DNA of 64,000 nt from Taiwanofungus camphoratus (lineage: Eukaryota > Basidiomycota > Agaricomycetes > Polyporales > Taiwanofungaceae). The first letter of the stretch is position 1, and every line of letters starts with the position of its first letter. A program made the position numbers and the translations under genes. This document shows, piece by piece, positions 6,065-64,000 of this stretch. The notes beneath the pieces were generated by a model. It searched no databases. It had not been told where the DNA came from and saw nothing but the letters and a program-made list of their open reading frames with translations. Location: assembly GCA_003999685.1 (NCBI GenBank), contig CP021221.1, positions 2,232,001-2,296,000 on the forward strand. Direction: 5' to 3'.

Positions 6065-7111
6065 CTAGTGATGTAGACGGCCCCAAAGTATGAACTGCCT
6101 AGTGCAATCGGACATGTCTCGAAGAGTCAGGACCAGAGGAGCATGACCGCTATGTGCTCTCTCTGAAGTATCCTCACAATGGAGTATCTCTACAACCCGG
6201 TCCATCAACGTCCGTTGAGCAAGCGCATAATCCACTCGGGCACAATCCGCTCCCTGAGGCTTGCCTTTTGCGAACCAGCTGGATGCCAGGCGGTCGCCGT
6301 GTACCTGTCGATATGCATCTACAAGATGAAGGCGCGGAATGAACTCCTCGGTGAATTCCTTCCGTGCCAGGGAATGCGGGTACTCTGTTCGAAGACGAGG
6401 CACACAGTCTCGCTTCATTAACGAAATATTGAAGTCGCCGATCAAGACTAGCTGGAGCCCGCGAGCTTGGATGACTTGACACTCTTGAAGCAGGAGTCGG
6501 TTGAATTCGCGCTCCCGCTCATTGCGGGTTTTGGGTGTATCCTTGCCCAAGGAGTTCTCCACATATATTCGCTCCCATTTAATGAGTACACGTTGATAAA
6601 TGCCCATCCGCTAATCATCTCAAGGATAACGATGCGACCCTCGGAATCCCAATCTACCTCGCGCGTGGCAGCCGCGGCCTCCGGACTCTTTGGGTGATTA
6701 CGCCGAAGTGACGCTGTCCGCGCGTAGACTTGTTAAGAGAGGTGTATGGAGTGTATCTAGGGGTTCCGTCACACTGGTTGGCAGTGGCTTTCAAAGCTAC
6801 GATCCATGCCTTGTCCGAGTGTCGTGCACGAACCTCCTGGAGACAGTCAAAGTCTGGAAAGTGGTGCCGAGCAAGCATATCACGCAGGAGGGGGAGACGG
6901 CGTCCGGGCGAGTCCACCGAGGAAGATTCAACCTTGCGAGCGGGCAGATTCAAGAAGGGGACAGCGTCTCGACATTCCACGACAAGATCCTTGTTGCGTC
7001 GGATCCAAGGGGCAGGCTTGGTAGAGGTGTGTTGTCCAGAAGTATTTTCTTTGGTTTTGCCGAGTTCACGTTTGATTCGACAAGCTCTGTACTTCTTCCG
7101 CGTTTGGACAT
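6065..7111 (-). pseudogene. Decayed exonuclease III / AP endonuclease-family gene
   Basis: Endonuclease/exonuclease/phosphatase-fold nucleases of this type cut DNA at abasic sites or degrade 3' ends. From the ATG at 7111 (MSKRGRSTELVES) the family blocks appear in order: RILSWNVETL, PDFDCLQEVRARHSDKAWI, GQRHFGVIT, VDWDSEGRIVILEMISGWAF, NGSEYMW, GDFNI and GADCARVDYAL. They lie in three different frames: breaks fall near 6961 (run of four C), near 6696 (after GVIT) and near 6560 (after NGSEYMW). Each break sits inside a conserved block, with no GT/AG pair that could rescue it as an intron. The final SDH motif reads SGHAPL, so the metal-binding Asp is lost too. I read this as a recent pseudogene; sequencing error in three places is the alternative. 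Confidence 0.75.
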
Positions 7112-7622
7112 TTGTAAATGTAAACCCTTGAGGTTTACGTAGAGTCGCCTGCTCCTGATGACGGGGGAAAGCCGCAGGATTCGAATTAGTGAGGAAGTGG
7201 GTGAATAGGCCTGGTCCTAATTTGCAACTGTTGGGACAGCTCTATGCTCAAGTGAAATCTGCTGCAAGACGTACGTGATGCATGTGATCAATGATCATCT
7301 TCAAAATCGGGACTTATCAATTCATTGCTTTGGGTAAAGAAGCGCTCGTGAAATGATGGTCTATGCATAGGTGCTCAGTGATGGCCAATACATCTCATGC
7401 ATATACTAGCTCGTACCGACATTGTCCCTAGCCCCTATGCAGGTGTATAAAATTGCCGGGATTCATGTTACGAAATAATGCATGACGCGAAAATGGATTT
7501 TCTTCTATTACAGAGGAAGACATAAATTAGGATAACGGCTCAAAGAAGGGGAAGTCTAGATGTACACGGAAATGGTTAACTGCAAACGCCTGCCACTCGT
7601 ATTTGCTTGTGCAGTTGAAAAT
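7112..7622. other. Intergenic region
   Basis: About 0.5 kb, AT-richer than its surroundings, between two minus-strand genes. It would hold the former promoter of the decayed nuclease and the 3' end of the transcription factor gene. No motif stands out. Confidence 0.45.
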
Positions 7623-59110: not shown

Positions 59111-62100
59111 TCAACAAAGCTCTATGCAAGATCCAAGATGAATGAACTTGCCATTTGAATGATCATACGCCCTCGCTCGTTCCAGAACTGCGCTGGCTCG
59201 GTTTATGGGGGCTGTAGGCTTGGCGCTGGGCAAAGTCTTCGACCGGCTTAATTCTGTCACTTTTGTGTCCAATAGAGGACCCTTCGGTGGCAACGTTGCT
59301 GAACTTGATCCGCCCGGGTGTATCCTCTCTAGTGACTTATTGCCTTCTCGGCTGTTCTGGGTAGACGAAGATAAGGTCGATGATATTGGGTCGATGGTCT
59401 CAGACAGGTGAGAGGGCTCCACAACCGTTGGTAACGTTGGAAGAATAGAGGACATTGGTCTCGAAACAGTGGCTGACATGCTTCGAGTTGCGGCAGGACT
59501 AGAAGGAAGTCCGACGGCACGCGAGGATGTGCGTGCAGCAGCCGGTGATGGGTTGTGAGAAATGATATATGACCCGCTGGTGGCAGATGTAACAGGCGAT
59601 CTCGCAGGCTGCCCAGCAGTAACTCTATCCATGGGTTTTGTTGGAAGAATCGGCCTCATATTCACTGTGCCGGAGCGTGGACGTGAACGTGGCGTTGCCA
59701 AAACATGCTCCAGGCGAGGTATCAAGGACGTTGGAGGTTTAGGCATGACTTCCAAAGAACTTAACCGGGCACCAAATACTTGTCGATGAAGATCCAGGTG
59801 ATTGAACTTCGGTCTTCGTCGACGGACAATGGGTTCATGATCAGAATGATCAACGACCTTCGAAGCTACGAGCTGCATTGGCTCCCTCAAAGGAGACGGG
59901 TAGACTTCCAGGAAGGGATATACCGATGGATCTACAAGTTACATTCTGATCAGGAGAATGTCACCGGCAGACCAGTGATCACTTACATATGTCAAACACA
60001 GGATATGTCACCTCCAATCTCACAGTAATGGCATGTTTCTCACATGTCCCTGGTAAAAGCTCATCTACATATTCCGGATATAGCAAGAAGAATGGATACA
60101 CCCCAGGATCTGGAAGCAGACGTTAGACCTCGGAGCACAACACGACTCAGCAACTTACAAGGATCAATATGGGGGTAATGAGTGGGTAGAATGACAGAGG
60201 GCATTGTTTCGACCCGTCTTTCTAAGGACTGACGACCGGTCTCAGATGTAGAACTTCTCGACAGTGCTCTGAAAGGCTGCGGCACCTCGTTTCTCAAAGC
60301 AATCGGGGAATAGATATCCACGACATTATTAGGATAAACTGCAGGATCTGGAAGGTCCAAAATGAGTTAGCAACGTCATGCCTCTCCATCAAAGTCAGGC
60401 AGCTCACAAAGGTTGAGGGCTGGATATGATGCGGCAGGTTTCACAGAACAAATGCCTGTCGACAAGGCTCCACCCAAAATTGGTGGAAAGGTGTTGGCGG
60501 ACGGAAAGATATCGTCCAGGTTATCGGGATACACGGCAGGATCTAGTGGTAGGTTCGAATGAGCAGACCCACAAGAAATAAGTTGAGAATTACACAGTCT
60601 AAAAAGCGGATAGTGGACATTCAATGTAACGGGGAGTTCCTCAGGGTTCATTATATTTGAAAATGAACTTCGTGTACGATGGACGATATGCTGGCGCCGC
60701 GGTTGAGGGGAATAGATCTCTGGACTGTGAGGACATCTGACGGTCCCTACGCAACTTAATGAGAAGAAAAATGAACAGGGAGGCCAAGGACTTACCGGGT
60801 TCAAGAGGGGAACATTTGTCTATCGGCATGGTGCCGTCTGTCTTCCTGTCTAAGATGATACTCTCCAATTGGGTAGGGTAAATTTGGTTCAAGCTGTGAG
60901 GATATACTGCAGGATCTAATGGTACGTGGTGAGTATGATAATCTCTACAAAAGATCATAGGCATACATAGGTCAAACATAGGATAATGCACCGTGGAGCT
61001 GAGCCTTGACCCTTCTGTATTGGAGTTGATGTCGCTTTGAATTGGTGAATGAACCGCTGAATATGTACAATTCAGATTGGGTAACAGGAACAACGATGAG
61101 ATTGATAGTAACATACAGCTATTGAACCGCGGATAAGATGCTGTCTCGATGGACTCTACAGCTGACGCGGTCATTCTGCTATGATATATCTTTTGAAGAC
61201 TGTAGGGATATGTCGCGGGATCTGTAGGTACTTGAGTAACCAATGGCCACTTTCATGCTGGTTACCACTCACAAAGATCGAACATAGGGTACGTGAAGCA
61301 TAGCGCAACATTCACAGGGTTCAGGTGCACCACATTGCTATGCTTGGCACGCAGCACTGATGATGTCGGCCTGTCGTCAACGGATGCCACTAAATAAATA
61401 TGCTCAAGGTTATGTGGATAGACTGGTTGGTCTGAGGCTCATCGTGTCAGGGCCATATTATTGAAGCGGGGGAATGACCTACAGAGGACGAAGGAAGGAT
61501 AGTGCACCGATAACCGGATCTTGGGTGAAGTGGGCCGTTTTGTATTCTCGATCAGATGCGTCGAGTGATAGATCTGCTCCATATTCCAAGGATACACAGC
61601 AGGATCTGCAGAAGATATGTCAGACTTCAACTATTTAAGGCATCAGCAGCTTACGTACACAGATCGAATACAGAATAGCTTGCGGTCAACCTAACCCGCA
61701 TGATAGCAGTTTTTGAATTCTTCTCAGACGTGATGGGTGAGGTAACAGATGAAATCGACGGATATAGCTCAAAATGAGGATACACTGCGGGATCTACGCC
61801 GTCGGGATTAGCCCGCGTGAAACGAAAGCAAACGAGGTCAACCTTACAAAGGTTCAACGATGGATAGCTTCGATCATAGTGCGCAAGAAATTCCTCAGCT
61901 TGGACATCACCCATCATGTGCCCAAGGGGGGGATACAACTCGAAGAACGGATACACCGCGGGGTCTAGCAGAACAGATCAGGAGCCGCGATGAAGTGAGA
62001 AAACAAACTTACAAAGAATGAAGTGAGGATAGCATGTATGAGAGTGCACAGGGCTAGAAGTCACGGCAGCATGCACGATTCCAGGTTGTGAATATGGCCA

Positions 62101-64000
62101 AACTTGCCTCCACGGGGCAACTTGATCAATGACTTGAGAAGCCGGCTCAGATGAATCGACAAGGTCACGATATCTGACCTCCGGGGCGGGACTAGTACTT
62201 GGACTGTGAGATGGAAACTTGAACGGCAACGCTTTCTCTGATGATCGTGCACCCTCTGAAAAGGTTTTGTAAGGCCATAGGTGACCCCACGGCTGCGCTT
62301 CGTCTGGCCTGTCCTGATAGGGCCAAACATGGTTCCACGGTTGAGACCGTGTATAGGGCCATACATGGGTCCAGGGTTCGGCCTGAGGACTATGGGAAGA
62401 AGTTATCTTGGAGGAATCAATCGCTTCGTGCAACCCGACTTTTGCAGCAGGACTTGCACTGTAATGCGGAAATACAAGCCTCGATGGGGATGTCTCCTGT
62501 AACGATTGCGCTTCACCCTGCATGGTTTCTCGGAAGTATGGCCAGATGTGTCTCCAAGGTTGTGCTTCAGCAGATGCATCTCCAGCCCCCGAAATAGCTT
62601 CAGCTGTGTGCCTTCTCGGAGGATCCCGTAAGACCGTAGGAAGGGGGGTCACAGGGACGCTGAGCAATCTGCAATCACCCAAATCTGGAGATGATACCCT
62701 AGGCGCATATTCGCTACGCGCAGGGGACAGAGGATAAGAGGGGCCACCCCCAAAAATTTCCGTGGAGGGCGTCAAGGGGACACTCATCATCCCCCGCGCA
62801 GCAACATCAGGAAAAGGCACCCGATGTACTACCTCGCTGTGCGCGAGAGACTCTGGATAGGGCGATGGTGGACCCCAAGATGTTGCAGTCTCGGGCGTCA
62901 AAGGAACGCTCAACATGCCTCTCGCCCCAAGATCTGGCGAAGATACTCGATGAAGATGGTCATCGTGTCCAGGAGACGCTAGATAAGATAGTGGTGGGCC
63001 CCAAGAAGTCGCAGTGGACGGAGTCACGGGGCGACTGGACATCTGTCTGCCTGCGATATCTACAGAAGGTGCATAGTAGCTGTGGCCATCCAGGGGAGAC
63101 GAGGGGTAGGAAAGTGGCGCACCCCAGCTGGTGGCAGTGGCTGGCGTGGGCGGGGCATCTTCCAGAACTCGCCTGGCAAGGTCGGGGGAAGGCAGCCGCC
63201 ACACAACGGACTGGACGTCTTCATCATGCTCGTAGTCAGGGGGTCCAGCAGACGAGACGGACCACGCATAATCATCGAGATTCAATTCGAACTCTTGAGC
63301 TGTACTGGCGCTAGGAAGGTCGCCAATCACATTCGGCATGTTCGCAGGGTCGAGGCTCGTCTGTCCTGTCGCAGCCAGCGGACTGTGTGTGTAAGACGCA
63401 CTCGCTCGCCATGAGGTCACAAGCGTGTCAATGTCTTTCCTAGCAGTTCTCAGTTCTTCCTCCTGCACGATGGGAGATAGAGCAGCACGGAGCAATTGGA
63501 CTTCCTCAGTCGGACTCTGAGAAGATAGATGGCGTGGTACCACTCTTGAGTCAGACGCAATAGACGATGTCTCAAACCGGTCTAGTAAAGATAGCTTTTT
63601 CGGTGCAAGTCTCGGTGCGTTCAGGGCTGTCCTAGACTGCTGGAGAAGGAGGGTATGATCTAAATGATCGTCCCCTCGATCATCTAAGAACGTGGTCCTG
63701 CTGTCTCCGCGCCAATGTGATATGGATTGACGACGAGACGGAGTTACGGAAATGGGAACATCCACGACCTCCCTGCGGGCAGAGGCAAGCCAAGCGTCAT
63801 ACCATCGTGCTTTCGACAAGTCGACATCAAATTCTATTTGACCACTGATAGGCAGCTGTGTCTGAAAGACGGAAGAGCGCGCGTCGAACAGAGAACCCCA
63901 AAGTAGATGCCAGGTCTCATCTGAAATACGAGGGTACAGGGCTATTCCGTTGTGATTGGTGTGCAAGTAGAGACAGAGACCAGCCGTGCTAGGCAGGCTG
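59111..64000 (-). CDS. Basidiomycete exon-array protein with PAVYP...YPxFxLY repeats (5' end beyond window)
   Basis: Function unknown; I recall related Tyr-Pro repeat proteins only from agaricomycetes. The frame is open to the right edge, so the start is missing. One giant exon (to 62013) encodes about 660 residues: an N-terminal part (ALYPRISDETWHLLWGSLFD), then about five imperfect repeats built on TPxTATSWGPPLSYP...SVPLTP, then five PWxHVWPY motifs. Twelve short exons follow. Cassettes typically start PAVYP-H/W/N-xxxxIYP and end YPxFxL, with the last codon split T/AY by the intron. The terminal exon (59931-59111) gives PSVYPFLEVYPSP, RRRRPKFNHLDLHRQVFGAR and a Ser/Thr-rich tail. Cassettes are 36-65 residues long. 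No signal peptide, membrane segment or catalytic motif is visible. Confidence 0.8.
59987..61964 (-). repeat. Tandem array of 11 phase-1 cassette exons
   Basis: Measured exons include 61848-61964 (117 nt), 61659-61793 (135), 61483-61605 (123), 61273-61431 (159) and 59987-60109 (123), all multiples of three. Every intron in the array is phase 1 and about 45-60 nt. Most cassettes carry PAVYP (variants QPVYP, PATYP, PGVYP) just after the 5' splice and YPxFxL just before the 3' splice. One cassette near 61000-61075 lacks PAVYP and begins VHSPIQSD; another near 60600-60748 begins TVRCPHSPEIY. Confidence 0.8.

Follow-up and report, generated by a model that had tools for sequence, protein, structure and literature searches.

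Near one end of a 64,000-nucleotide window of the Taiwanofungus camphoratus genome (bases 2232001-2296000 of contig 2; the genome searched comprises 33.19 Mb in 15 contigs) lies a gene in which one exon after another is joined to the next within the same short peptide motif. How did such an array arise, does its repeat number still vary, and what might so many copies of one motif do?

A motif assembled at exon junctions

The gene was modelled on the minus strand with exon boundaries set by hand, which gave 13 exons in a single open frame throughout, with the stop at 59111 (Table 1). The 12 introns between them (62013 to 59931, minus strand) are 48 to 60 nt long and all begin with GT and end with AG. 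The sequence-only reading of this stretch had claimed twelve consecutive phase-1 introns, at least ten of them at the same codon of a motif, and cassettes that are symmetric (1-1) and multiples of three in length. Indeed, 12/12 array introns are in phase 1, all 11 internal exons (90 to 189 nt) are multiples of three, and the shared codon position is clear at ten junctions and degenerate at two. In contrast, the intron upstream of the large exon is in phase 0. It follows a first exon beyond the window that ends LFTT, after which the large exon starts MGSQLSAIAREF; the reading frame has its first ATG at L002:1502, which corresponds to window position 64502 and so lies 502 bases outside the window, and the full protein has 1,566 residues.

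Table 1. Exons of the array gene within the window
Feature	Position	Strand	Length (nt)	Content	Basis
Large exon, window part	62013..63999	-		N-terminal domain (its C-terminal part); repeats of TATSWG type; PWxxxWPY motifs (five); YPHFIL as first tail	
Cassette exon 2	61848..61964	-	117	outer-type head YPFFELYP	gene model
Cassette exon 3	61659..61793	-	135	outer-type head YPHFELYP	gene model
Cassette exon 4	61483..61605	-	123	inner-type head YPWNMEQIY	gene model
Cassette exon 5	61273..61431	-	159	inner-type head YPHNLEHIY	gene model
Cassette exon 6	61117..61221	-	105	inner-type head YPYSLQKIY	gene model
Cassette exon 7	60967..61056	-	90	degenerate head SVHSPIQS	gene model
Cassette exon 8	60796..60915	-	120	inner-type head YPHSLNQIYP, degenerate tail	gene model
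Cassette exon 9	60594..60746	-	153	degenerate head CPHSPEIYS	gene model
Cassette exon 10	60408..60542	-	135	inner-type head YPDNLDDIF	gene model
Cassette exon 11	60159..60347	-	189	inner-type head YPNNVVDIY	gene model
Cassette exon 12	59987..60109	-	123	outer-type head YPFFLLYP	gene model
Last exon	59111..59931	-		outer-type head YPFLEVYP, RPKFNHLDLHRQVFG, Ser/Pro-rich tail, stop	

Ten of the 12 array introns interrupt one and the same codon, that of the central Tyr in YPxFxL-Y-PAVYP or in a sequence close to it. The spliced consensus of these ten junctions is Y-[PS]-x-[FLI]-x-[LIP]-Y-[PQ]-[APGS]-[VT]-Y-P, with the three Tyr residues and the final Pro invariant. The exons are laid out as head, linker (22 to 121 nt) and tail, and sites form only when a tail is joined to a head; the conserved motif straddles the introns and is present only after splicing. 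Because splicing rebuilds the motif, skipping of a cassette would drop one linker and one site and restore the remaining site. YP occurs 33 times in the 503-residue array, compared to a maximum of 12 in 500 shuffles.

With exon ends placed by hand and two junctions degenerate, the array could be an artefact of the gene model, with misassigned introns or with exons from separate or dead genes. We consider this extremely unlikely, since the 483 cassette codons are open, the GT-AG borders are accompanied by a CTNAN branch-like site in 12/12 introns, and amino acid constraint runs across the joined junctions. Under a uniform codon model, a stop-free stretch of 483 codons has a probability of 8.5e-11, a value that serves as a guide only, as the exon ends were chosen. 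The CTNAN site ends 10 to 18 nt 5' of the acceptor, a distance range fixed after the data had been seen, and shuffles gave a mean of 1.8 and a maximum of 6/12 introns (2000 shuffles); the stricter branch pattern YTRAY was found in 7/12. If phases are taken as independent and at 1/3 each, 12/12 in phase 1 has a probability of 1.9e-6, but duplicated introns are not independent, and so this value rejects chance and not a shared origin. Eight of the 12 introns are multiples of three in length (p 0.019 versus 1/3), and four are exactly 51 nt long, which would fit descent from a single intron length. Tandem Repeats Finder reported three arrays across the window and none at the exon array, which is not simple-repeat DNA, and Rfam and tRNA searches gave 0 and 0 matches.

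Growth and age of the array

The array appears to have grown by duplication of symmetric 1-1 exons. This proposal of the sequence-only reading is well supported by the common phase and codon position of the introns, by the homology of the junctions (two of them decayed-looking), and by head classes that are ordered by position. The outer heads (junctions 1, 2, 11, and 12) read YPxFxLYP, with YPFLEVYP at junction 12, and the inner heads (junctions 3, 4, 5, 7, 9, and 10) have YP, five residues, I, and then Y or F. This grouping gave the top identity contrast (0.121), rank 1 of the 210 four/six splits of the ten motifs, but the rank is only descriptive because the split was picked after the identity matrix had been seen. 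The arrangement suggests that the outer cassettes may be the older ones and that the inner class expanded between them; growth from inside would be the simplest history.

The two degenerate junctions both lie inside the array, not at its ends, and look decayed. Junction 6 has kept SYPRFNS before the intron, followed by SVHSPIQ after it. At junction 8, KCSPLEPG is followed by TVRCPHSPEIYS, and of the head only CPHSPEIYS is kept. The end of intron 6 (window 61057-61116) translates in frame as TYSA before VHS; since TYSAVHS resembles LYPAVYP, the acceptor of junction 6 has probably moved six bases downstream from where it originally lay.

How old is the array? Across the 45 pairs of the ten junctions, the motif has a pS of 0.74 versus a pN of 0.20, a count tilted toward constraint by the omission of the degenerate junctions 6 and 8. 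The protein sequence of the motif has been kept and silent sites have diverged strongly, which is the pattern of an old array under selection for the motif. Outside the motif the similarity is slight: linker DNA had a mean score of -10.96 versus -12.07 (standard deviation [sd], 0.50) for mononucleotide shuffles, about 2 sd above, and intron cores had -3.61 versus -4.76 (sd, 0.44). As both are slightly above the shuffles, some conservation of the linkers is possible.

More specific histories were also considered and rejected. For recent duplication or mobile intron copying, the intron cores are on average just 2.6 sd above shuffles and the best pair is unremarkable. For duplication of a two-exon block (junctions 6-7 versus 8-9), the best intron pair, 7/9, was equalled by 174/500 shuffles. 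The similarity of the linkers of cassettes 3 and 12 (z 3.7, the best of 55 pairs) is weak and was set aside.

The sequence-only reading held that repeat number can vary by unequal crossing-over; the data give no support for such variation in the present-day array. Among the 55 pairs of units (exons 2 to 12, each with its following intron), the longest exact match is 11 nt, and long near-identical copies fit for recombination were not found. Exact matches this short serve unequal crossing-over poorly. The array looks old and fixed, not variable at present.

Could the protein nevertheless be variable, its valency tuned by unequal crossing-over or by leaving out exons? Each of the 11 cassettes is symmetric and a multiple of three in length, so that any skip rebuilds a junction. 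Introns 2, 6, 7, and 9 are likewise multiples of three without an in-frame stop, and therefore even their retention would keep the frame; it would also break the central Tyr and add residues. For Schizophyllum commune, a splice-junction count classes 1,527 of 15,054 primary events as exon skips in coding regions, which leaves room for exon skipping in mushrooms, whereas in a transcript-based count from the same paper exon skipping accounts for 1% of events in coding regions, against 43 to 44% for intron retention (PMC5034255). In view of the latter count, and of a pS of 0.74 with no exact run above 11 nt between units, we regard a splice- or repeat-number-variable protein as unlikely.

Two known systems invite comparison. 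The PEVK region of vertebrate titin is a disordered repeat protein on many small symmetric exons with documented isoform splicing. By description, the array gene is like it in having apparently disordered repeats on small symmetric exons, but its conserved motif is intron centred and the documented isoform splicing is titin's. The micro-exon genes of schistosomes share with the array gene a chain of short exons, and their exons are symmetric and multiples of three. They encode secreted proteins from exons of 3 to 81 bp with long introns (PMC10526429). In contrast, the array gene has introns of 48 to 60 nt, exons of 90 to 189 nt, and one repeated motif.

The N-terminal domain and searches for relatives

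Pfam at curated cut-offs gave no match for the N-terminal domain, for 633 residues of the large exon, for the joined array with the C terminus, or for the last exon. A single relative of the N-terminal domain turned up in the genome search, on contig 1 (G000:C1:3522063-3522773; E 6.3e-9 and 0.003; BLASTP 3e-14), with 32% identity across 110 aa and 52% across 27 aa. A contiguous exon of this paralogue aligns without a gap across the join of the first exon and the large exon of the array gene. Unlike the array gene, the paralogue has no P.[VT]YP or YP.[FLI].[LI][CY] in six frames of the surrounding 9.5 kb, and its 653-aa piece matched no Pfam family at cut-off. The N-terminal domain was also compared with viral and bacterial contig collections, which gave 12 and 64 pattern matches, and no relative was confirmed among them.

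The large exon has repeats of its own (window 62092-63147, minus strand): three TATSWG motifs (62872-63138), which sit in a longer repeat with two more degenerate copies recognizable by eye, and the PWxxxWPY motifs (62092-62559). Since no introns lie between these repeats, the layout of one exon per repeat is special, within this gene, to the YPAVYP array.

Of the two characters that the sequence-only reading had offered for the protein, scaffold-like is plausible and cell surface found no support. A crude hydropathy test peaked at a 19-residue mean of 1.14 near residue 89, next to the N-terminal domain, and revealed no signal peptide or transmembrane segment; the N terminus, MSHLLSNHVHRPYLFELP, has no hydrophobic core by eye. 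The composition suggests that the protein is intracellular and its long tail disordered.

An array query of 140 residues (exons 2 to 5) against the genome gave 5 matches with E<=1 among the best candidates scored, all within the gene. At the DNA level, PAVYP had 22 matches in the genome (14 for a reversed control pattern), 6 of them in the array gene, and local translation of the remaining 16 revealed no setting comparable to the array. A pattern of acceptor plus head had 13 matches (control, 6), 8 in the array gene, and a tail pattern had 11 (control, 1), 4 in the array gene. The 7 tail matches outside the gene were retrieved as well; one of them, IYPAFDLYP, lies near base 2000 of L024 on the minus strand of contig 4, possibly behind a splice acceptor, and no PAVYP-like motif was found near it. 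Of two PDB sequence searches, one gave 3 matches at E 0.32 to 0.48 and the other 0. A literature search for YPAVYP or LPSTGGL found nothing, and one on tandem exon duplication in fungi found no such gene. Among the neighbouring genes, matches to PXB and DUF3818 were above cut-off and matches to ORC4_C and Med20 were below theirs. Elsewhere in the window (6068-7241, minus strand), fragments resemble a retroelement endonuclease by eye, with no Pfam match at E 0.001.

A candidate docking scaffold

With slightly better than even confidence, we favour the view that the protein with this seemingly old, fixed array is an intracellular multivalent linear-motif scaffold, consisting of a small N-terminal domain and an apparently disordered tail with many aromatic-proline motifs. 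The middle of the tail would go back to old duplications of one symmetric 1-1 exon, with the intron centred in a short motif. Normal splicing, presumably constitutive in the array, would then rebuild one YPxFxLYPAVYP plus head at nearly every junction, with free linkers between, and the resulting approximately ten candidate docking sites may serve one kind of partner. It is solely the constraint on the motif that points to docking.

Alternatively, the aromatic-proline repeats could fold or self-associate, as a short beta-solenoid or a sticker-and-spacer condensate, with no docking of partners. The spacing of the aromatic residues is regular inside the motifs, and the five PWxxxWPY motifs further upstream would be in line with this. 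However, the linkers are very unequal in length and share little similarity, and two units are degenerate; short constrained motifs combined with unequal linkers and degenerate copies fit multivalent docking better than a folded repeat, and we hold folding or self-association to be quite unlikely.

If the array is a docking scaffold, what is the partner? YPXL/I was reportedly described by Vincent et al. in 2003 (cited in PMC2171039) as a ligand motif of PalA, and a candidate reading would see in the array a multivalent ligand for V domains of the Bro1/PalA(Rim20) type and link the protein to ESCRT or alkaline-pH signalling. The array motif shares with the LYPXnL and YPXL-I ligands of ALIX/PalA V domains the pairing of Y-P with an L or I one to three residues further on. 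Both halves of most junction motifs are YPXnL-like: in the first half n=3, and in the second n=3 in outer and n=2 in inner cassettes, some with M or V for L. The array contains 20 YPX1-3[LI] versus 11.7 (sd, 2.5) in shuffles with YP fixed, none of 1000 of which reached 20, but this statistic is inflated, since the repeats share ancestry and the enrichment is partly automatic. V-domain genes are present in the genome, where PF13949 had 4 matches above cut-off at two places; V-domain proteins are expected generally in fungi, and thus their presence discriminates little. In contrast to the known ligands, the array has two such candidate elements in tandem around YPAVYP in about ten copies, and YPAVYP, its most constrained part, is not explained by YPXnL. 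We think it improbable that the array is such a ligand; a V-domain-type partner (Bro1/PalA) is a testable guess.

Returning to the docking scaffold, a bolder version would have a splice-assembled docking array in which the number of sites is tuned by developmental skipping of cassettes, possibly for V-domain partners in ESCRT or pH signalling. We consider it very unlikely; if it were true, every binding site would arise only on removal of an intron, and any skip would leave an intact site.

The analysis draws attention to an uncharacterised domain shared by two genes of this genome, and the array supplies short peptides for direct testing. When a cassette is duplicated, lost, or skipped, the other joints are spared, which frees the number of motifs from the integrity of the exons. 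The array gene is a clear fungal example of a repeat protein that grew by duplication of symmetric exons, with its motif centred on the introns and not internal to the exons.
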